Assembly (NCBI RefSeq): GCF_011058165.1 | Contig: NZ_JAALEG010000003.1 | Coordinates: 1-64,000, forward strand | Source: Rhodococcus aetherivorans | Lineage (GTDB): Bacteria; Actinomycetota; Actinomycetes; Mycobacteriales; Mycobacteriaceae | Length of the DNA: 64,000 nt | Direction of reading: 5' to 3' | Shown: one piece after another, positions 19,518 to 52,658 of the stretch | How positions within the stretch are numbered: position 1 is the first letter of the stretch | Layout of the letters: each line of letters begins with the position of its first letter | Program-made: the position numbers and the translations under genes | Notes under the pieces: generated by a model | What the model saw: only the letters and a program-made list of their open reading frames with translations | Databases searched by the model: none | Told to the model about the DNA's origin: nothing

Positions 19518-20144
19518 TCAGTTGCCCCGGCGGATCCATTCCTCGAGATGCGGGGACTCGGTGCCGATCGTCGTGCCGTCGCCGTGACCGGTGTGCACCT
19601 TCGTCTCGGCGGGCAGGGCGAACAGCTTGTCGCGGATCGAGCCGATGATGGTCGGGAAGTCCGAGTACGAGCGTCCCGTCGCACCGGGACCGCCGGAGAA
19701 CAGGGTGTCGCCGGTGAACAGCTCGCCCGCCTCCGGCAGGTACAGGCACGTCGAGCCGGGCGAGTGCCCGGGGGTGTGGATGACCTGGATGTCGGTGCCC
19801 GCCACCGTGATCCGATCCCCGTCCGCGAGCGGCCGGTGCGCGACACCGGGGTGGGTCATCTCCCACAGCACGTCGTCGGCGGGGTTGAGCAGGATCGGGG
19901 CGTCGAGCTTGTCGGCCAGCTCGGGGGCGACGGTGACGTGGTCGTTGTGCCCGTGCGTGCACACGATCGCCACCACCTTCCGGCCACCGACGGCGTCGAT
20001 GATCGGCTGCGCGGTGTGCGCGGCATCGATCACGACCACCTCGTCGTCGTCGCCGACGAGCCAGATGTTGTTGTCGACCTCCCACTCGCCGCCGTCGAGG
20101 GCGAAGGTGCCGTGGGTGACGACCCGATCGATACGCAGAGTCAC
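19518..20144 (-). CDS. MBL-fold metallo-hydrolase paired with mycothiol formaldehyde dehydrogenase
   Basis: This 208-residue metallo-beta-lactamase-fold hydrolase has the metal motif [10 protein letters not shown], then [21 protein letters not shown] and TGHGDGTT. It is the immediate partner of the S-(hydroxymethyl)mycothiol dehydrogenase. By analogy to glyoxalase-II-like enzymes it may hydrolyse S-formyl-mycothiol. That role is inferred from pairing and fold. GTG at 20144 overlaps the dehydrogenase stop (GTGA). Confidence 0.87.
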
Positions 20145-21226
20145 AGGACCACCACCGAGCGCAGCACCTCGCCGCGGTGCATGGTCTCGAACGCCTTCTC
20201 CACCTGGTCGAGGGCGATGCGCTCGGTGACGAACTTCTCGAGCGGCAGCCGGCCCTGCTGGTAGAGGTCGACGAGCATGGGGAAGTCCCGCTCGGGCAGG
20301 CAGTCGCCGTACCAGGACGACTTGAGGGACCCGCCGCGGGAGAAGAAGTCGATCAGCGGCATCTCGAGGGTCATCTCCGGGGTGGGCACCCCGACGAGGA
20401 CGACGGTGCCGGCCAGGTCGCGGGCGTAGAACGCCTGCTTCCACGTCTCCGGGCGGCCGACCGCGTCGATGACCACGTCGGCGCCGAAGCCGCCGGTCAG
20501 CTCCTGGATCGCCTCGACCGCGTCGACCTCGGCCCCGTTGATGGTGTGGGTAGCCCCGAGGTCGGTGGCCCACTCGAGCTTCCTCGGGTCCCGGTCGACC
20601 GCGATGATCTTGTTGGCGCCGGCGAGGCGGGCGCCCATGATCGCGGCGTCGCCCACGCCGCCGCAGCCGATCACCGCGACGGAGTCGCCGCGGGTCACCC
20701 CGCCGGTGTTCACCGCGGCACCGAGGCCTGCCATCACCCCGCAGCCGAGCAGGCCGACGACGGCCGGGTCGGCGCTGGGGTCGACCTTGGTGCACTGCCC
20801 TGCGTGCACGAGGGTCTTGTCGGCGAACGCGCCGATGCCCAGGGCCGGGGTCAGCTCGGTGCCGTCCTCGAGGGTCATCTTCTGCGTGGCGTTGTGGGTG
20901 TCGAAGCAGTACTGCGGGCGGCCGCGCTTGCAGGCGCGGCACTGCCCGCACACGGCCCGCCAGTTGAGGACGACGAAGTCCCCGACGGCGACCGAGTCGA
21001 CGCCCGCACCGACGGACTCGACGACACCGGCGGCCTCGTGCCCGAGCAGGAACGGGAACTCGTCGTTGATGCCGCCCTCCCGGTAGTGCAGGTCGGTGTG
21101 GCACACGCCGCACGCGGCGATCGCGACGACGACCTCCCCCGGCCCCGGGTCGGGGATGACGATCGGCACGACCTCGACGGGAGCGCCCTTCGCGCGGGCG
21201 ACGACGCCCCGGACCTGCTGTGGCAT
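20141..21226 (-). CDS. mscR: S-(hydroxymethyl)mycothiol dehydrogenase (mycothiol-dependent formaldehyde dehydrogenase)
   Basis: This 361-residue zinc alcohol dehydrogenase oxidises the formaldehyde-mycothiol adduct with NAD+ and may also act as an S-nitrosomycothiol reductase. Catalytic zinc ligands are in [14 protein letters not shown] and GHEAAG, and structural zinc ligands in [15 protein letters not shown]. The Rossmann glycine motif is [15 protein letters not shown] 21226 follows AAGGAGAC. It forms an operon with the MBL hydrolase. It fits as a sink for formaldehyde from the demethylation genes at 25-29 kb. Confidence 0.92.
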
Positions 21227-23710: not shown

Positions 23711-25072
23711 TCAGTGTGTGGCCACCGAGGCGGGTGTGTCGGCGGACCGGGCGTCGGCGGTGTGCGCCTCGAACCGCAGCCGTCCCACGGCGACGGCGGC
23801 GAGCACGAGGGCGCCGGCGACGAGCAGGTAGAGCTGGGTGGGCGACCAGTGCAGGTCGAGCAGCGCACCGGCGACGATCGGCGAGGCGATGGCCCCGAGC
23901 CGGCCGACGCCGATGCCCCAGCCGACGCCGGTCGCCCGCACCGACGGCGCATACACCGAGGGCGTGATCGCGTACAGGCCCGCGATGCACCCGTTGACGA
24001 ACACGCCGATGAGGGCGCCGAGGGCGAACGCGACGACCACCGCGACGGTGGCGGGGACGAAGACCACGAGCAGAGCGCCGGCGATCACCATGTACGACGC
24101 CAGGACCCGCTTCAGCGCGAATCGCGCGGACAGCGCGCCGAGCAGCGTTGCGCCGAAGATGCCGCCGAGGTTCAGCAGCACGCCCCCGGTGATGCCCTGG
24201 TCGGCCGACAGGCCCGCTTCGACGAGCAGCTTCGGCGTCCAGCTCGTCACGAAGTAGAAGGCGAACATGGTCAGGAAGAACGCGGCCCAGACGAGCACCG
24301 TCGAGCGACGCTGCCGCGGTGCGAGGAGGCTGCCGACCCTGACGCCGGACCGCGGCCCGGAATCGTCGGCCTGTCGCGGCGCGGGCAGCGCGGCGAGCGG
24401 CTGGTGCCCGGCGCGGACCGCGAACGCGTTGATGCGGGCGAGGGCGTGGGCGGGCCGCCGGGCGAGCAGGAAGTCGAGGGATTCGGGCAGGCGGAGGTAC
24501 ACGACCGGGATGATCACCGCGGTGCAGACGCCGCCGAACAGGAAGACGGATCGCCATCCGTAGGAGTTCTGCAGCACGACGGCGATGATGCCGCCGACGG
24601 TGGCGCCGACGGCGTAGCCGGTGGAGTTCAGGCTCACCGCCAGCGCGCGCCACCGGTTGGAGGCGTACTCGCTGGCGATGACGTTGCTGCTGGCGAGGAT
24701 TCCCCCGATGCCGACGCCGGTGAGGGCGCGCAGCAGCCCCAGCTGCAGGGCGCTCTGGCTGACCGCGGAGGCAAGCATGCCGATCGACGCGATCCCCAGG
24801 CAGAGCAGGATCATGCCGCGGCGGCCGATCGTGTCGGCCCACGGCGCGAGGAACAGCGAGCCCGCGGCCATGCCGAACAGGCCTGCGCTGAGCAGCAGGC
24901 CGAGCGCCGAACCGGACAGGCCCCACTCCTGGGACACCGACTGGGCGGTGAAGGCCATGACGAGCACGTCGAAGCCGTCGAGGACGTTGAGCAGCACGCA
25001 GATCGCCACCGCGCCCCATTGGAAGCGCGTCATCGGGCTGGTGTCGATGCGTTCACGTAGATCGATTGCCAT
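23711..25072 (-). CDS. MFS transporter, aromatic acid:H+ symporter (AAHS) type
   Basis: This 453-residue protein has twelve predicted membrane segments. It carries the AAHS signature LDGFDVLVMAF in helix 1, the loop 2-3 motif APWADTIGRRGMILL and a central loop after residue 200. AAHS carriers (PcaK, VanK, BenK) import benzoate-type acids. ATG 25072 is chosen over a 22-residue longer form because family homology begins at the helix-1 region. It is divergent from the Rieske oxygenase and co-directional with the LuxR regulator. Confidence 0.85.
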   Translation of the reverse strand: MAIDLRERIDTSPMTRFQWGAVAICVLLNVLDGFDVLVMAFTAQSVSQEWGLSGSALGLLLSAGLFGMAAGSLFLAPWADTIGRRGMILLCLGIASIGMLASAVSQSALQLGLLRALTGVGIGGILASSNVIASEYASNRWRALAVSLNSTGYAVGATVGGIIAVVLQNSYGWRSVFLFGGVCTAVIIPVVYLRLPESLDFLLARRPAHALARINAFAVRAGHQPLAALPAPRQADDSGPRSGVRVGSLLAPRQRRSTVLVWAAFFLTMFAFYFVTSWTPKLLVEAGLSADQGITGGVLLNLGGIFGATLLGALSARFALKRVLASYMVIAGALLVVFVPATVAVVVAFALGALIGVFVNGCIAGLYAITPSVYAPSVRATGVGWGIGVGRLGAIASPIVAGALLDLHWSPTQLYLLVAGALVLAAVAVGRLRFEAHTADARSADTPASVATH

Positions 25073-25152
25073 GTATCGGGCCCCTGTTCGAAGGATGTGA
25101 GGCGAGTCACCTGCGAGGAGCGTGATGGATCGGATCACAACGAATCCACCCT

Positions 25153-25290: not shown

Positions 25291-26352
25291 ATGACGAAGA
25301 TCGCCCGGAACCAGTGGTATGTGGCCGCCTACGGCCGCGAGATCGACCGGGAACTGTTCGCCCGGACCATCTGCGACGAGCCGATCCTGTTCTGGCGCAC
25401 CGAATCCGGTGAGGTCACCGCAATGTCGGACCGGTGCGTGCACCGCCGCTTCCCGCTCTCGCAGGCGCCGAGCCGCCTCGCGGGCGACACGGTCGTATGC
25501 GGCTACCACGGCTTCACCTACGGGTCCGACGGCGGCTGCGTGGCCGTGCCGGGCCAGAAGCGGGTGCCCCGCACCGCGCGACTGAAGTCGTACCCGGTGG
25601 TCGAGCAGGACTCGTTCGTGTGGATCTGGATCGCCGACCCGGACCGTCCGGCCGAGCCCGATCCGACCCGCATCCCCCGGGCGCCGTGGCTCGACGCGCC
25701 CGGCTACGCCGTGGCCTCGGGCATGGAGCCGCTGCGGGCGCGCTACAGCCTGCTCGTCGACAACCTGATGGACCTCTCCCACGAGACGTACCTGCACGGC
25801 GGCTACATCGGCACCCCCGAGGTGGCCGAGACCCCCATCACCACCGAGGTCGACGACGAGGCCGGGATCGTCTACGTCTCCCGGCACATCGCCGACGCGG
25901 AATGCCCGCCCTTCTACGCCGAATCGACCGGCCTCGAGGGCCGCATCACCCGGTGGCAGGACATCGAGTACCACCCGCCGTGCCTGTACCTGCTGCACAG
26001 CCGGATCGCGCCCGTCGGCGTGCTGCCGCCCGAGACCGGACCCGACAGCGACGCGTTCCACGTCGAGGTGGTCTACGCGATCACCCCGGAGACCGAACAC
26101 TCCACTCACGATTTCTGGTCGGTGGCAAGGGATTTTGCGCTCGAGGACGAGAAGGTCACCGAGTTCCTGCGCGAGAACAACCGCACCGTCGTGCTGCAGG
26201 ACGTCGTCGCGCTCGACCGGCTCGAACAGGTGCTCGCCACCGAACCAGAGGGGTACCAGGAACTGAGCATCAACATCGACGCCGGCGCTCTGGCCGCGCG
26301 GCGGATCCTGCAGGCGATGACGGCGGGCGGCACCCTCGCCGAGACGAGGTAA
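25291..26352 (+). CDS. Rieske non-heme iron oxygenase, VanA-type aromatic O-demethylase
   Basis: This 353-residue terminal oxygenase belongs to the vanillate O-demethylase group. The Rieske ligands are C49-x-H51 (RCVHRRFP) and C70-x2-H73 (VCGYHGF). The mononuclear iron ligands are in DNLMDLSHETYLHGG. The enzyme would hydroxylate a methoxy group, releasing formaldehyde. ATG 25291 is chosen because homology starts at NQWYVAAY. The next genes encode a small Cys protein, a VanB-type reductase and a P450. Vanillate itself is only one of several possible substrates. Confidence 0.87.
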   Translation: MTKIARNQWYVAAYGREIDRELFARTICDEPILFWRTESGEVTAMSDRCVHRRFPLSQAPSRLAGDTVVCGYHGFTYGSDGGCVAVPGQKRVPRTARLKSYPVVEQDSFVWIWIADPDRPAEPDPTRIPRAPWLDAPGYAVASGMEPLRARYSLLVDNLMDLSHETYLHGGYIGTPEVAETPITTEVDDEAGIVYVSRHIADAECPPFYAESTGLEGRITRWQDIEYHPPCLYLLHSRIAPVGVLPPETGPDSDAFHVEVVYAITPETEHSTHDFWSVARDFALEDEKVTEFLRENNRTVVLQDVVALDRLEQVLATEPEGYQELSINIDAGALAARRILQAMTAGGTLAETR

Positions 26353-26355
26353 CCG

Positions 26356-26574
26356 ATGTCCTCGCAACCGAACCGGATGCTGCGCGGGCCCAACGTGATG
26401 CGCGTCGTGTGGCTGCCCGGCTCCGACCGCCTCGAGGGAACGTGCCATTGCGGTGCCCGGCACGTCGCCGAGGATCCCGTCACGCTGTGGGACTGGCTGC
26501 TCGCTCATCCCGTCGGCCACGCCGACGCCCTCCCCCGGCCGCCCGAACCGACCCGCGAAGTCGCTCACGCGTAA
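26356..26574 (+). CDS. Small protein with a CxCG motif in the demethylase operon
   Basis: This 72-residue protein starts three bases after the oxygenase stop and ends 10 bases before the reductase start. I do not recognise its family. It has a single Cys pair in GTCHCGARHVAED that could bind metal, and a Trp-rich stretch (LWDWLLAHPVGH). The tight spacing and codon use like the neighbours support it being a real gene. It may be an accessory to one of the oxygenases. Confidence 0.65.
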   Translation: MSSQPNRMLRGPNVMRVVWLPGSDRLEGTCHCGARHVAEDPVTLWDWLLAHPVGHADALPRPPEPTREVAHA

Positions 26575-26584
26575 GGACCCGACC

Positions 26585-27562
26585 ATGACATTTCCGGAAA
26601 ACAACTCCCCGGCAAACGAATTCGGCACCGACCTCGAAATCGTCGAGCGGACGGAACCCGCGGACGGCGTCGTCGCGCTGTGCCTGCGGCACCCGGACGG
26701 CGGGCCCCTGCCGCCGTGGAGTCCCGGCGCGCACATCGATCTCGTGCTCGACGAGGACCTCGTCCGTCAGTACTCGCTGTGCGGCGACCCGGCCGACACC
26801 GGGACGTGGCGCATCGCCGTCCTGCGCGAGGCCGACGGCCGCGGCGGCTCGCAGTACGTGCACGACAAACTCGCCGTCGGTGACCGCGTCCGCGTTCACG
26901 GACCCCGCAACAACTTCGACCTCGCCCCGGCGCCGCGCTACCTCTTCCTCGCCGGCGGGATCGGGATCACCCCGATAGTGCCGATGATCGCCGCGGCCGA
27001 GGCGGCCGGCGCCGACTGGTCCCTCGTCTACGGCGGCCGCCGCCGCGCCTCGATGGCGTTCGCCGACGACCTCGTCACCCGCTACCCGGGCCGGGTCACC
27101 CTCGTGCCGCAGGACGAACGGGGCCCGCTCGATCTGCCGTCGCTGCTCGGGGACCCGCGTCCCGGCACCCTCGTCTACTGCTGCGGCCCCGCCGGGCTGC
27201 TCGACGCCGTCACCACCGCCTGCGCCGACCGGCCCGCCGGGTCGCTGCGGATCGAACGGTTCGCCGCGAAGGAACAGTCCGCTCCGGTGCGCTCGGACGG
27301 CTTCGAGGTGGAGCTGGCCCTGAGCGGTACCACCGTCACCGTCGCGCCCGACGAGAGCGTCCTGGACGCCGTCGCCGCCGCGGGTGTGCAGGTGCTCTCG
27401 TCCTGCCGCGAAGGTACCTGCGGCACCTGCGAGACCACCGTGCTCGCCGGCACGGTGGACCACCGCGACTCCCTGCTGACCCCCGAAGAACAGGCCGCGC
27501 ACGACACCATGCTGATCTGCGTGTCCCGCGCCGCCTGCCCCCGCCTGGTTCTCGAACTCTGA
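26585..27562 (+). CDS. VanB-type oxidoreductase (flavin/NAD domain plus [2Fe-2S] ferredoxin domain)
   Basis: This 325-residue reductase of the phthalate-dioxygenase-reductase family passes electrons from NAD(P)H to an oxygenase. The flavin-binding motif is RQYSLCGDP. The nucleotide-binding part includes LFLAGGIGITPIVPM and YCCGPAGLLDAV. The C-terminal ferredoxin has SSCREGTCGTCETTVL plus a later Cys (LICVSRA). ATG 26585. It lies between the Rieske oxygenase and the P450, and is the only reductase in the cluster, so it may serve both. Confidence 0.9.
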   Translation: MTFPENNSPANEFGTDLEIVERTEPADGVVALCLRHPDGGPLPPWSPGAHIDLVLDEDLVRQYSLCGDPADTGTWRIAVLREADGRGGSQYVHDKLAVGDRVRVHGPRNNFDLAPAPRYLFLAGGIGITPIVPMIAAAEAAGADWSLVYGGRRRASMAFADDLVTRYPGRVTLVPQDERGPLDLPSLLGDPRPGTLVYCCGPAGLLDAVTTACADRPAGSLRIERFAAKEQSAPVRSDGFEVELALSGTTVTVAPDESVLDAVAAAGVQVLSSCREGTCGTCETTVLAGTVDHRDSLLTPEEQAAHDTMLICVSRAACPRLVLEL

Positions 27563-27587
27563 CTGCCCGAATCCCGAGGTGACCGCC

Positions 27588-28787
27588 GTGACCGTCGCAA
27601 TGCACCCGCCCACCCTCGACGACGACCCGTTCGACGACGCCGTCCTCGCCGACCCGTACGAGTTCCACGCCCGGCTGCGCGCCGCCGGACCGGTGGTGTA
27701 CCTGCCCCGATACGACGTGTACGCGACGGGCAGGTTCGAGGAGGTCCACGCCTGCCTCACCGACTGGCGCACCTTCGTCTCCGGACGAGGGGTCGGCCTC
27801 GCCGACTTCGCCCACGAGACGCCGTGGCGTACCCCGAGCCTGCTGCTCGAGGCCGACCCGCCGGACCACACGGTGGTGCGGGCGGCCATGGGGGCCGTCG
27901 TCTCGCCGCGCACCGTGCGCGCGCTACGCGCCGGGTTCGAGGCCGAGGCCGACGCCCTGGCCGACGCGCTCGTGGCCCGCGGTGAGTTCGACGCCGTCAC
28001 CGATCTCGCCGAGGTGTTCCCCCTGCGGGTGTTCCCGGACGCGGTGGGGATCCGGGAGGACGGCCGCGAGCATCTGTTGCCGTACGGCGCCATGGCGTTC
28101 AACGCCTTCGGGCCCCGCAACGACCGCGTGGAGAGGGCACTCGCCGCGTCCGGGCCGACGCAGGAGTGGGTCGCGGAGTCGTGCCGGCGGGAGAATCTCG
28201 CGCCGGGCGGGTTCGGCGCGCAGATCTGGGCGGCCGCCGACCGTGGTGACATCACCGCCGAACAGGCGCCTATGCTCGTTCGATCCCTGCTCACCGCCGG
28301 CGTGGACACCACCGTTCACGGCATCGCCAACACCGTCTACGCCATGACGCGGTTCCCCGGGCAGTGGCAGGCGCTGCACGCCCGGCCGGCGCTCGCGAAG
28401 TTCGCGTTCGACGAGGCGCTGCGCTGGGAATCGCCCGTGCAGACCTTCTTCCGCACCACCCCCACCGACACCGAGGTGGCCGGCGTCCCCATCGGCGAGG
28501 GCCGCAAGGTCCTGCTGTTCCTCGGCGCCGCCAACCGCGACGAACGGCGATGGGGACCCGATGCGCACGTCGTCGACATCCACCGCTCCGCCGGCGGACA
28601 CGTCGCGTTCGGCATGGGCATCCACCAGTGCGTCGGTCAGCCGATCGCGCGGCTCGAGGCCGAGGTGCTGCTCACCGCGCTGGCACAGCGGATCCGGCGG
28701 ATCGAACCGGCCGGGGATCCGGTGCCGCAACCGAACAACACGCTCAAGGGCTGGGCTAGCATTCCGCTCAGAGTCGAACCGGCCTGA
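27588..28787 (+). CDS. Cytochrome P450, CYP199A-like (4-methoxybenzoate-type O-demethylase)
   Basis: This 399-residue P450 has the I-helix LLTAGVDTTVHGIA, the EALR ExxR motif and the heme loop FGMGIHQCVGQ, with Cys348 as thiolate ligand. Long stretches match Rhodopseudomonas CYP199A enzymes that demethylate 4-methoxybenzoate, for example AGPVVYL, SRGVGL-like GRGVGLADF, LEADPP, LLPY and VQTFFRTT. This match is from memory. GTG 27588 is preferred because GAGGTG lies just upstream, with GTG 27579 as an alternative. No ferredoxin gene is adjacent; the VanB-type reductase is 25 bp upstream. Confidence 0.85.
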   Translation: MTVAMHPPTLDDDPFDDAVLADPYEFHARLRAAGPVVYLPRYDVYATGRFEEVHACLTDWRTFVSGRGVGLADFAHETPWRTPSLLLEADPPDHTVVRAAMGAVVSPRTVRALRAGFEAEADALADALVARGEFDAVTDLAEVFPLRVFPDAVGIREDGREHLLPYGAMAFNAFGPRNDRVERALAASGPTQEWVAESCRRENLAPGGFGAQIWAAADRGDITAEQAPMLVRSLLTAGVDTTVHGIANTVYAMTRFPGQWQALHARPALAKFAFDEALRWESPVQTFFRTTPTDTEVAGVPIGEGRKVLLFLGAANRDERRWGPDAHVVDIHRSAGGHVAFGMGIHQCVGQPIARLEAEVLLTALAQRIRRIEPAGDPVPQPNNTLKGWASIPLRVEPA

Positions 28788-28821: not shown

Positions 28822-29607
28822 GTGACCCCCACCGGCGCCGCCCGCCCGGCCACCGGTTCCGTCACGGTACGCGCGCTCACCCTCCTGGAGGCGTTCACGC
28901 GCGAGCAACCCAACCTGACCCTGAGCGAGATTTCCCGGCGCACCGGCCTGCCGCTCACCACGGTGCACCGGCTCGCCGGGGATCTCACCGAGTGGGGCGC
29001 GCTGGAACGCGACTCGTCCGGCCGATTCAGCATCGGCCTCCGGCTGTGGCAGGTCGCGGCGCTCGCGCCGCGCGGCACGCTGCTGCGTGAGCTGGCGCTG
29101 CCCGTGATGGAGGACCTGTCGCAGATCACCCAGGAGAACGTGCAGCTCGGTGTGCGTGAGGGGACCGAGGTGGTGTTCGTCGAACGCCTGCGCGGTCAGC
29201 GGGCGGTGAAGACCCTCACCCGGGTCGGCAGCCCCTTTCCCATCCACGCGTCCGGCCTGGGACTCGTGCTGCTCGCGTTCGCACCGCGCTCCGTTCAGGA
29301 GGAGGTGCTGGCCCGGCCGCTGGAGCGGTTCACCGAACGCACCCTCACCTCCCCCGCCGAGCTGCGCCGGGTCCTGGCCGAGGTACGCCGCTCCGAGATC
29401 GCGGTGAGCGACCGGCAGGTGACGATGGAGGCGGTCTCCGTGGCCGCACCCATCTTCGAGCGGCCCGGCGTCGCCATCGCGGCGCTGTCGATCGTCGCCG
29501 CCGCGGACACCGCGCAGGTCACCGCACTGTCCCAACTGGTCCGCGCCGCGGCCCGCGCGATCGGCCGCTCCCTGCGGCCCGGCGGATTGACGAGCAGCGA
29601 TGGGTGA
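28822..29607 (+). CDS. IclR-family transcriptional regulator
   Basis: This 261-residue regulator has an N-terminal winged helix (VRALTLLEAF, LTLSEISRRTGLPLTTVHRLAGDL). The C-terminal IclR effector domain follows, with FVERLRGQRAVKT, PIHASGLGLVLLAF and the ligand-site SVAAPIFERPGVAIAALSIV. GTG 28822 follows a purine-rich GGAAGGGGTGAG. It lies 34 bp after the P450 and overlaps the downstream ligase gene by eight bases. It probably controls this operon in response to an aromatic acid. Confidence 0.88.
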   Translation: MTPTGAARPATGSVTVRALTLLEAFTREQPNLTLSEISRRTGLPLTTVHRLAGDLTEWGALERDSSGRFSIGLRLWQVAALAPRGTLLRELALPVMEDLSQITQENVQLGVREGTEVVFVERLRGQRAVKTLTRVGSPFPIHASGLGLVLLAFAPRSVQEEVLARPLERFTERTLTSPAELRRVLAEVRRSEIAVSDRQVTMEAVSVAAPIFERPGVAIAALSIVAAADTAQVTALSQLVRAAARAIGRSLRPGGLTSSDG

Positions 29608-49670: not shown

Positions 49671-52658
49671 TCAGCCGCCGGTGGACTGGTACGCGTCCAC
49701 GGCCGCCTGCACCCGTTGCAGCGCCCGGCCGTAGGCGGCGAAGTCGCCCGTGCTCTGGGCCGCACTGAGCTCGGCCAGCGCCGCGTCGAGTTCGGCGACC
49801 GCGGCCGCCCGGTCCGCGGGAGCCGGGGCGGGAGCGGGGTTCGGCGCCGGAGCGGGCGCCGGAGCCGCTGCCTGACCGTCCTGCTCCGTCCCCTCGACCG
49901 GCGCGGTGGGCGCCGACTCGCCACCCGGCGCGGTGGCCGCACTGCCGACACCGGCCCCGAAGACCTGGTCCAGCGCCGAGGCGAGGGTGGGGGCGTAGCC
50001 GATGCGCACGCCGCCGGCAGGGCCGGGCTCGCGATAGCTGACGATCACCCGGGACAGCTGCGGGAACGTCGACGTGCTCCCCGTCGCCGAACTGCGTTCC
50101 GTGTACATCGGCTGGACGTAGAGGATCCCGCCCTGGGCGATGGGCAACGTCAGCAGGTTGCCGTACTGGATCCGGTTGGATCTCTCGAGCAGGGTCCGCT
50201 CCGACGCGACGCGCGTGTCGGAGATCATCGCGTTCTGCGTCTGTTCGGGACCGAACGTCTGGGTGTCGGTCGGCAGCCGCAGGATCGTGAACCTGCCGTA
50301 GTTGTCCGGGTCCGAGTCCACCGAGATGTACGCGGACAGGAACTGCCGGTTGAAGCCCACCATCGCCGAGGTGAGCCGGAACGACGGGCGGGCCGTCTCC
50401 TCGTCACCGATCAGCACGTAGTACGGCGGCTGGTTCGCGGTCGTGTCCACCGTCGGATCGCTCGGCACCGACCAGAACGCGTTGTTGGTGAAGAACTCGC
50501 GCGGGTCGTCCACGTGATACTTCGCCAGCATCTCGCGCTGCACCTTGAACAGGTCCTCCGGGTACCGGAAGTGCGAGCGGAGCTCGTCGGAGATCTGATC
50601 CTGCGGGGTCACCGCATCGGGGAAGACACCCATCCACGCCTTCAGGACCGGGTCCTGGTCGTCGACCTGGTAGAGGGTCACGGTGCCGTCGTACGCGTCG
50701 ACCGTCGCCTTCACCGAGTTCCGGATGTAGGAGACCTCCTTGCGGGGCAGCAGCCGGCCGGTGTTCTGGTCGACGCTGTCCTCGACGAGCCCTTCGAGGG
50801 AACTGCGCTGCGCGTACGGGTAGTTGTCGAGCGTGGTGTAGGCGTCGACGATCCACACGATGCGCCCGTCGACCGCGGCGGGATAGGCGTCGCCGTCGGC
50901 GGTGAGCCACGGCGCGACCTTCGTCACCCGGTCCCGCGGGTCGCGGTTGAACAGCAGCTTCGACTCGCTGCCGATGGCGCTCGAGAACAGGATGTTGCGT
51001 TCGGCGTACTTGGACGCGAACGCGAGCCGGTTGAACCAGTTGCCGATCGAGACGCCACCCGAGCCGGTGTAGGTGTACTGCGCGGTGTCGGTGTCGTACT
51101 CCCGCGGGGCCTCCCCCTCGGCGGCACCGACGATCGCGTAGTCGGGCTCCTCCTGCGCGATGACCTCACCGAAGTAGATCCGCGGCTGCTCGACCGGAAT
51201 CACCTGGTTGCCCGACTCGAGCGATGCGATGTCGCTGACCATGTACACCGGGTAGCCACTGTTGCTGTTCGCGGCCTCTTCCGCGGACTCGCTGGCGGCC
51301 GCGTTCACCCGGTTGGCGGGAGCCGCGACCAGGCCGTTGCCGTGGGTGTACACCGTGTGCTTGTTGATCCAGTCGGTCTGGTTGCCCGTCAGGCTCGACG
51401 GCGACAGCTCGCGGGCGGCGACGATGTAGTCCTCGCGCTCCCCGTCGATCTCGTACCGGTCGATGTCCAGCGACGGCGGGAACCCGTAGAAGTTCTTCAG
51501 CTGCTGCTGCTGGGTGAAGGTGCGCGGCAGCACGTTGGGATCGAGCAGGCGGGTGTTGGCGATGGTGGTCACGTCCGCCGGCACGTTGCGCGGTGACGTG
51601 GTGCCCACGCCGGGGTAATCCCGGTACTCCACGATCTCGTCCGTGATGCCGTAGGCCTCACGCGTCGCCGCGATGTTGCGCTCGATGTACTCGGACTCCT
51701 TGACGGCGGCGTTCGGCCGGACGGAGAACTGCTCGACCACCAGCGGCCACACGGCCCCGACGAGGATCGACGAGAGCACGAGCAGGGCCGTCGCCATCGC
51801 CGGGATGCGCAGGTCGCGCAGCACGATGGCCGCGAAGAACGCCACCGCGCAGATGACCGCGATCGCCATCAGGATCAGCTTCGCGGGCAGCACGGCATTG
51901 ATGTCGGTGAAGCCCGCGCCCGTGAAGGTGGGCTCCTTGCGCCCGCTCCACAGCAGTGCGTACCGGTCGAGCCAGTACGCGATCGCCTTGAGCGCAACGA
52001 AGATCCCGGCCAGCACGGCCAGCTGGATGCGGGCGGCGCGGGTGAGGCTGCCGCCGCGGCCGGCGAGCCGGATGCCGCCGAAGATGTAGTGGGTGACCAG
52101 GCTGGCGAAGAGCGCCAGGATGACCGCCACGAACATCCAGTTCAGCAGGAAGCGGTAGAACGGCAGGTCGAAGGCGTAGAACCCGACGTCCAGCCCGAAC
52201 TGGGGGTCCGTGGTGCCGAACGAGCCGCCGTTGAAGAACATCTGCACGGTCACCCAGCTCGCCTGCGCGATCAGGCCCGACAGCAGGCCGAGCACGATCG
52301 GAATGCCGAGGCCGAACGTGCGCAGCCGGGTCATCACCGTGGTGCGATACCGCGAGATGGGGTCGTTGGGCCCGGATGCGGGCACGAACACCGGCCGCGA
52401 TCGGTACGCCAGCAGCAGCGCCAGCCACACCACACCGCCCACGAACAGGCTCACGAGGAGGAACAGGACGATCCGGGTCAACAGCACCTTCAGGTACACG
52501 TCACGGAAGTCGACCTCGCCGAACCACAGCCAGTTGGTGTAGGCGTCCACCAGTCGGGGACCGACCAGCAGCAGCACCGCGGCCACCACGGCCAGGCTCA
52601 GCAGGATCTTGCTGCGTTTCGACAGCGAAGGTACTCCGGTGGGGGGCCTCATGCCCAC
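49671..52658 (-). CDS. UPF0182-family large membrane protein
   Basis: This 995-residue protein has about seven N-terminal membrane helices (residues about 15-320). An extracytoplasmic domain of about 600 residues of unknown function follows, and the C-terminus is Pro/Ala-rich. Family landmarks are YTNWLWFGEVDFRDVYLKVL, YSQ-like FGLDVGFYAFDLPFYRFLLNW and YLDRYALLWSGR. GTG 52658 is chosen because GGGAG lies eight bases upstream; ATG 52652 is close. The homologue in M. tuberculosis (Rv3193c) has the same neighbours. Confidence 0.9.
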   Translation of the reverse strand: MGMRPPTGVPSLSKRSKILLSLAVVAAVLLLVGPRLVDAYTNWLWFGEVDFRDVYLKVLLTRIVLFLLVSLFVGGVVWLALLLAYRSRPVFVPASGPNDPISRYRTTVMTRLRTFGLGIPIVLGLLSGLIAQASWVTVQMFFNGGSFGTTDPQFGLDVGFYAFDLPFYRFLLNWMFVAVILALFASLVTHYIFGGIRLAGRGGSLTRAARIQLAVLAGIFVALKAIAYWLDRYALLWSGRKEPTFTGAGFTDINAVLPAKLILMAIAVICAVAFFAAIVLRDLRIPAMATALLVLSSILVGAVWPLVVEQFSVRPNAAVKESEYIERNIAATREAYGITDEIVEYRDYPGVGTTSPRNVPADVTTIANTRLLDPNVLPRTFTQQQQLKNFYGFPPSLDIDRYEIDGEREDYIVAARELSPSSLTGNQTDWINKHTVYTHGNGLVAAPANRVNAAASESAEEAANSNSGYPVYMVSDIASLESGNQVIPVEQPRIYFGEVIAQEEPDYAIVGAAEGEAPREYDTDTAQYTYTGSGGVSIGNWFNRLAFASKYAERNILFSSAIGSESKLLFNRDPRDRVTKVAPWLTADGDAYPAAVDGRIVWIVDAYTTLDNYPYAQRSSLEGLVEDSVDQNTGRLLPRKEVSYIRNSVKATVDAYDGTVTLYQVDDQDPVLKAWMGVFPDAVTPQDQISDELRSHFRYPEDLFKVQREMLAKYHVDDPREFFTNNAFWSVPSDPTVDTTANQPPYYVLIGDEETARPSFRLTSAMVGFNRQFLSAYISVDSDPDNYGRFTILRLPTDTQTFGPEQTQNAMISDTRVASERTLLERSNRIQYGNLLTLPIAQGGILYVQPMYTERSSATGSTSTFPQLSRVIVSYREPGPAGGVRIGYAPTLASALDQVFGAGVGSAATAPGGESAPTAPVEGTEQDGQAAAPAPAPAPNPAPAPAPADRAAAVAELDAALAELSAAQSTGDFAAYGRALQRVQAAVDAYQSTGG

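Follow-up and report, generated by a model that had tools for sequence, protein, structure and literature searches.

A candidate operon of Rhodococcus aetherivorans in which one VanB-type reductase may serve both a Rieske oxygenase and a CYP199-type P450

The P450s CYP199A2 and CYP199A4 of Rhodopseudomonas draw their electrons from a separate ferredoxin and reductase. The related actinobacterial P450 PbdA (Rhodococcus jostii RHA1) is served by one flavin and Fe-S protein, PbdB, and the PbdAB pair demethylates 4-methoxybenzoate, veratrate and isovanillate (PMC11530827). Type II vanillate O-demethylase, VanAB, is described in R. jostii RHA1 and Streptomyces sp. NL15-2K (PMC9867520). In the loci compared here its gene order is vanA-vanX-vanB-iclR, 'vanX' being a name coined in this analysis. 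In the guaiacol demethylase GcoA/GcoB, an aryl-O-demethylating P450 is paired with a single three-domain reductase protein and no separate ferredoxin (PMC6021390). Here we describe a gene cluster in a 64,000-nucleotide stretch of Rhodococcus aetherivorans (contig NZ_JAALEG010000003.1, positions 1 to 64,000; 'the window' in what follows) that combines familiar components in a new variant rather than representing a new type of system, and that encodes a VanB-type reductase between a Rieske oxygenase, VanA, and a CYP199-type P450.

Judged from sequence comparison, the cluster is probably an operon for para-then-meta O-demethylation, with VanB common to the P450 and the Rieske oxygenase. In the proposed scheme vanA, vanX, vanB, the P450 gene and iclR would be co-transcribed as one catabolic operon for methoxylated benzoates. 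The P450 would demethylate the para position, turning veratrate into vanillate and 4-methoxybenzoate into 4-hydroxybenzoate; VanA would demethylate the meta position, turning vanillate into protocatechuate; and VanB, a vanillate-type flavin/[2Fe-2S] reductase, would feed electrons to VanA and to the P450 as well. P450s of the window kind would then rely on VanB, in contrast to the PbdA type with its dedicated PbdB. With less assurance, we lean towards the wider reading that a CYP199 branch lacking a dedicated PbdB relies on the VanB of vanillate catabolism, with Rieske and heme-thiolate oxygenases of consecutive steps sharing it within one operon or in trans. A P450 fed by a one-protein reductase is not new, since PbdA/PbdB is published (PMC11530827). 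For a VanB-type reductase common to a Rieske enzyme and a P450, a search of titles and abstract openings, with subscription papers mostly outside its reach, showed no paper among those listed.

The gene cluster and its P450

The first-pass annotation had placed a VanA-type Rieske oxygenase, a PDR/VanB reductase and a CYP199-type P450 in this part of the window, and all three are intact open reading frames on the + strand. It had overlooked a small gene between the first two and a regulator gene downstream. The cluster reads as follows.

25291..26352, + strand: vanA, Rieske oxygenase of vanillate O-demethylase, actinobacterial type (Pfam Rieske and VanA_C above cut-off)
26356..26574, + strand: 'vanX', 72-aa conserved small protein between vanA and vanB (translation)
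26585..27562, + strand: vanB, PDR-type reductase, candidate shared electron donor (Pfam FAD_binding_6, NAD_binding_1 and Fer2)
27579..28787, + strand: CYP199-type P450, candidate para-methoxybenzoate O-demethylase (Pfam p450; closest structure 9g9q; active-site residues)
28822..29607, + strand: IclR-family regulator (IclR_C and HTH_IclR; GTG start picked by eye)

The successive intergenic gaps are 3, 10, 16 and 34 bp. VanA carries the Rieske motif C-x-H...C-x2-H and, by eye, D-x2-H-x4-H (DLSHETYLH), and its nearest solved structure is dicamba demethylase (3gb4). It shares at most 80% identity with the VanAs of relatives and at most 82% with those of other genomes. Against the VanA of R. jostii NBRC 16295, a stand-in for RHA1, identity is 78%; with its Rieske and VanA_C domains and identity of at least 60%, the window VanA belongs with type II. 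Many VanA-VanX-VanB rows of other genomes also have an IclR gene after VanB, and the window differs from the type II order by the P450 gene lying between vanB and iclR.

The nearest solved structures to the P450 are CYP199/PbdA of R. jostii RHA1 (9g9q), then CYP199A2 (2fr7) and CYP199A4 (4dnz). These proteins and their variants score 463-499 bits, and the next family about 170 bits, some 300 lower. The P450 of R. jostii NBRC 16295, near-identical to PbdA (839.6 bits against 9g9q), is 61% identical to that of the window. Pocket and carboxylate residues of PbdA are retained (R84, S87, L90, A173, F174, F177, R235, S236, A240, T244, V287 and F290 in window numbering), including the carboxylate-binding Arg, the two Ser and the aromatic pocket typical of CYP199. 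The register of the structure alignment gives the published PbdA residues Arg84, Ser87, Leu90, Ser237, Ala241, Thr245, Val288 and Phe291, and puts the published Phe173 and Phe176 at 175 and 178; the published Ala174 corresponds to window Ala173 (PMC11530827).

That alanine bears on the predicted substrate. CYP199A2 and CYP199A4 have Val there, and the larger side chain has been suggested to clash with the 3-methoxy group of veratrate (PMC11530827). Among the P450s sampled (groups defined below), Ala occupies the position in 17/17 of the window kind and 35/56 of the PbdA type (Leu in 16), and Val in 20/23 of the alphaproteobacterial ones. Because Ala173 is present, the window P450 is predicted to accept veratrate as PbdA does. 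It might instead act on some other carboxylate, given that PbdA and CYP199A4 also oxidise 4-ethylbenzoate (PMC11530827) and that some P450s of the window kind lie, by eye, beside ABC transporter-like genes of undefined substrate. We rate this as highly improbable in view of the retained pocket and of a 4-hydroxybenzoate 3-monooxygenase gene that lies close to a P450 of this kind on an R. opacus plasmid.

Reductase clades and the P450 kinds they accompany

The window reductase has the motifs RxYS, GGIGI and C-x4-C-x2-C...C. Its nearest solved relatives are the C-terminal parts of the P450 fusions 6kbh and 6laa, which we take to be CYP116B-type, followed by phthalate dioxygenase reductase (2pia). 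The reductase parts of those fusions are joined to their P450, whereas that of the window is encoded on its own and has two candidate oxygenases. GcoA/GcoB differs in another way, belonging to the P450 family CYP255A and having an N-terminal [2Fe-2S] domain in GcoB and no Rieske partner (PMC6021390).

The P450 neighbourhoods compared here come from 151 relatives (39 genomes matched at E 1e-60, in 44 places, of which 20 regions were analysed, some of them distant P450s), from named loci that are the best 80 of 564, and from plasmid loci that are five of 62 records. VanA loci were found in 15/151 relatives, counting the window and one outlier at 43% identity, and in 13/14 genomes of the 14 chosen loci.

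In a tree of 98 reductases, a branch labelled 99* splits a VanB clade of 43 members from a PbdB clade of 55. All 17 VanA-linked and all 8 VanA- and P450-linked reductases fall in the VanB clade, together with 6 P450-linked ones and 12 others; the PbdB clade holds 54 P450-linked reductases and 1 other. The window reductase is grouped (99*, best identity 72%) with two reductases of VanA-VanX-VanB rows (in genome G040 and in R. opacus G160) and with a P450-linked one from an R. opacus plasmid. The window P450 thus has beside it a PDR-type reductase of the VanB clade and none of the PbdB clade, with the caveat, which weighs against our reading, that an approximately unbiased (AU) test keeps the window reductase alone on the PbdB side possible (p 0.23). 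Placing all eight shared reductases jointly on the PbdB side is rejected (AU p 2e-5).

The reductase upstream of the PbdA-like P450 of R. jostii NBRC 16295, by position presumably PbdB itself, is of the same build as the window reductase and 63% identical to it. PbdA/PbdB thus resembles the window pair in both proteins (P450s at about 60% identity and with matching pocket residues) and differs in that PbdB belongs to the separate clade and is encoded without VanA, whereas the window donor is of the VanB clade and lies between VanA and the P450. A chimeric reductase with a VanB front and a PbdB back, formed by collapse of neighbouring operons such as those of locus L048 (see below), was also considered; it was rejected because sliding identity along seven segments, with differences between -0.02 and +0.04, gives no sign of a switch.

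The partner reductase varies with the kind of P450. Reading groups off the P450 tree, we sorted 103 P450s into 17 of the window kind (the window, Pseudonocardia, Frankia, Streptomyces violens, R. opacus, Geodermatophilaceae and a metagenome-assembled genome (MAG) of Mycobacteriaceae), 2 from Planotetraspora, 56 of the PbdA type, 4 Arthrobacter-like, 23 alphaproteobacterial and 1 other. Directly upstream of the window-kind and Planotetraspora P450s (n=19) there are 11 VanB-clade reductases, no PbdB-clade one and 8 cases without a reductase; for the PbdA type (n=56) the figures are 52 PbdB-clade, no VanB-clade, 3 unplaced and 1 none, and for the Arthrobacter-like (n=4) 3 VanB-clade and 1 none. 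All 23 alphaproteobacterial P450s and the 1 other lack a reductase of this kind directly upstream. The association of P450 kind with reductase clade has a Fisher p of 1.6e-12, which is not to be read at face value because it ignores ancestry and because P450s of the window kind appear in the P450 tree as an unresolved grade, not a proven clade, a point that also counts against the reading itself.

The expectation that a CYP199A enzyme takes a separate ferredoxin and reductase stands for the alphaproteobacteria and not for the actinobacteria, where PbdA uses the one-protein PbdB (PMC11530827). Most of the actinobacterial CYP199s in the sample are encoded next to a PbdB-clade reductase. For all their kinship, shared pocket and shared predicted reaction, CYP199A2 and CYP199A4 differ from the window P450 in this respect: none of the 23 sampled alphaproteobacterial loci has a reductase of this kind, and in 20 of them a motif scan reaching 2.5 kb from the P450 picks up an adrenodoxin-like motif (two of the 20 matches were inspected, and both are ferredoxin-like). 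For the window P450 the same scan gives no ferredoxin motif over that distance. Over the whole window it gives one match (50042-50287), judged by eye to be due to chance. The pattern is loose: it also matched at two loci of the window kind, where the stretches are read in frames other than those encoding VanA and the P450, and at 3/56 PbdA-type loci.

The residue four positions after the heme Cys was considered as a mark of the redox partner. It is P in 15/17 and L in 2/17 of the window kind, H in 56/56 of the PbdA type, L in 23/23 of the alphaproteobacterial, Q in 2/2 of the Planotetraspora and P in 4/4 of the Arthrobacter-like P450s. It was dropped as evidence; the groups track ancestry and Planotetraspora breaks the rule. 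In two segments assumed to be proximal, discriminating columns are weakly enriched (7/36 columns, binomial p 0.07).

Recurrence, split loci and other possible donors

A search for conservation of the gene order finds the VanA-VanB-P450 row nine times, in at least five genera: the window, a plasmid of Pseudonocardia sp. EC080619-01, P. oroxyli, Frankia AgKG'84/4, Frankia AgB32, Streptomyces violens (which also carries a divergent second VanA-VanX-VanB), Planotetraspora thailandica, Planotetraspora mira and genome G227. For the first eight, a single clade of VanAs is rejected (AU p 0.0006) and a single clade of P450s is possible (AU p 0.24). The VanAs not forming one clade, the link of window-kind P450s with vanillate operons was formed or lost more than once. 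The trait is sporadic in the window's genus, with no VanA at E 1e-80 in any of the 17 other genomes searched.

One oxygenase missing as a rule from homologous clusters had been named in advance as evidence against a shared reductase. This is what the sampled CYP199 family shows, its clusters being mostly reductase-P450 without VanA; it is less true of the window-kind P450s, where VanA is in the same gene row in 8/19. Where a window-kind P450 lies away from VanA, 7 of the 8 genomes searched hold VanA elsewhere (the P450 contig of one MAG and the host of the R. opacus plasmid were left out). Five of these trans cases (Modestobacter lapidis, G. sabuli, G. ruber, the Mycobacteriaceae MAG and R. 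opacus) have an intact VanA-VanX-VanB elsewhere and lack a VanB-like reductase immediately before the P450. In M. lapidis and the Mycobacteriaceae MAG the sole reductase at E 1e-95 is that of VanA-VanX-VanB; a single reductase at this threshold occurs in 5/14 genomes. In R. opacus, moreover, a Rieske-reductase pair of distant kinship (35-36%) follows the P450 at about 1 kb. In Modestobacter and Geodermatophilus (L076, L077), reductase-less P450s of the window kind lie, by eye, beside ABC transporter-like genes, a hint at dedicated uptake.

In P. xinjiangensis and P. alaniniphila a VanB-P450 pair is found at one place and VanA-VanX without VanB at another. This arrangement would suit a reductase that works chiefly for the P450, in the manner of PbdB, with VanA poorly served or vestigial. 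Such an account is highly improbable for the window, where the vanA gene is intact, its product reaches 82% identity to the VanAs from ordinary operons, and the reductase clusters with VanA partners in the tree.

Genomes with a PbdA-type P450 offer a contrast. Locus L048 has IclR-reductase-P450 followed by VanA-VanX-VanB-IclR, each system with its own reductase, and is a natural control for sharing. Five genomes with both a PbdA-type P450 and VanA (G023, G123, G131, G134 and G148) have a reductase for each, the two rows being adjacent in G148. In G023 the PbdA-type P450 is split over two frames beside its reductase, and the genome also has VanA-VanX-VanB.

Several observations weigh against a shared VanB. 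G. sabuli and R. opacus additionally carry a PbdB-clade reductase; in P. xinjiangensis and likewise in P. alaniniphila there is one more VanB-like reductase, a possible donor for VanA. Pseudonocardia dioxanivorans CB1190 has a window-kind P450, but searches of its genome for VanA (at E 1e-60) and for VanB homologues (at E 1e-20) gave nothing, an empty result that in the absence of a positive control carries no weight of its own. VanA is also frequent with PbdA-type P450s (22/39 genomes). VanA-VanX without a linked VanB occurs in 4/20 PbdA-type genomes, all Actinomadura (at one more locus, L246, the contig breaks off), and in Actinomadura G165, making five Actinomadura genomes with PbdBA. VanB is unlinked in 5/30 VanA loci of the G172 family (about 1.5 kb of flank viewed), and four of those five genomes have no CYP199 match at E 1e-95. 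VanB being unlinked also where this P450 is lacking, VanA can evidently function without a reductase gene beside it, and the split cases are no more than suggestive; these control genomes weaken split linkage as a proof that VanB is shared. VanA co-occurrence was likewise set aside as support, the difference between 7/8 (unlinked window kind) and 22/39 (PbdA type) being too small. In the Actinomadura loci L256-L259 and L292 the PbdB-PbdA pair is present, and PbdB or another PDR reductase may serve VanA, which would be sharing in the reverse direction.

The first-pass annotation had called the reductase the only electron donor, which is right for the cluster and not for the genome. A second VanB-clade reductase, 60% identical, is encoded on contig C66 (74988-75914) among SDR and MFS genes (Pfam), with other P450s about 5.5 and 7.4 kb off; ten more reductase homologues at 33-50% identity and six Fer4_15 ferredoxins are also present, and these too count against the reading. 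Co-location might therefore be all that joins the genes, VanB serving VanA and the P450 being fed by the C66 reductase or by a ferredoxin and its reductase, a reading that fits P. dioxanivorans, whose P450 of this kind occurs with no VanB found. We consider this doubtful, since VanB ends 16 bp before the P450 gene, 11/11 linked reductases are of the VanB clade and no ferredoxin motif accompanies the window P450 within the distance scanned. The earlier proposal that one reductase feeds both oxygenases is supported in part, by the comparative evidence of clade, 11/11 linkage and recurrence in nine loci.

VanX, neighbouring genes and significance

VanX has a counterpart in 25/28 other VanA loci, being missing in two Frankia operons and L245. 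An alignment of 23 sequences gives a core of about 45 residues with an invariant C-x-C, W-x-W and His (invariant residues G22, D24, L26, C30, C32, G33, P41, W45, W47 and H51). VanX stays with VanA where VanB sits elsewhere (L227, L228, L256-L259). There is no NCBIfam match to VanX and no Pfam match to its Pseudonocardia counterpart, and a literature search that most subscription papers lay beyond returned no paper. The predicted fold consists of three strands plus one helix, and no structure matches it strongly. One might guess that VanX acts in VanA assembly or electron entry.

The neighbouring genes of interest lie upstream on the opposite strand.

23711..25138, - strand: divergent MFS transporter (MFS_1; nearest the aromatic acid:H+ symport family)
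20141..21226, - strand: S-(hydroxymethyl)mycothiol dehydrogenase (TIGR03451, 699.9 bits, cut-off 512.9)
19518..20144, - strand: MBL-fold hydrolase overlapping the end of the mycothiol dehydrogenase gene (glyoxalase-II-like matches under cut-off; translation)

The transporter scores 371.7 bits against TIGR00895, under the cut-off of 418.55, and the IclR regulator matches TIGR02431 (PcaR/PobR family), also under cut-off. From its position about 4 kb upstream, the mycothiol dehydrogenase is a plausible formaldehyde sink for both demethylases, and the MBL-fold hydrolase is perhaps its partner, again by position.

If VanB does serve both oxygenases, one donor would be common to a Rieske oxygenase and a P450, an instance of bacteria rewiring redox partnerships across superfamilies of enzymes. 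The split between VanB and PbdB offers a ready comparison for the determinants of P450-reductase specificity. O-demethylation has been termed essential and rate-determining in lignin conversion (PMC11530827), and the cluster would then be a small one-reductase cassette from veratrate to protocatechuate, useful for that conversion.

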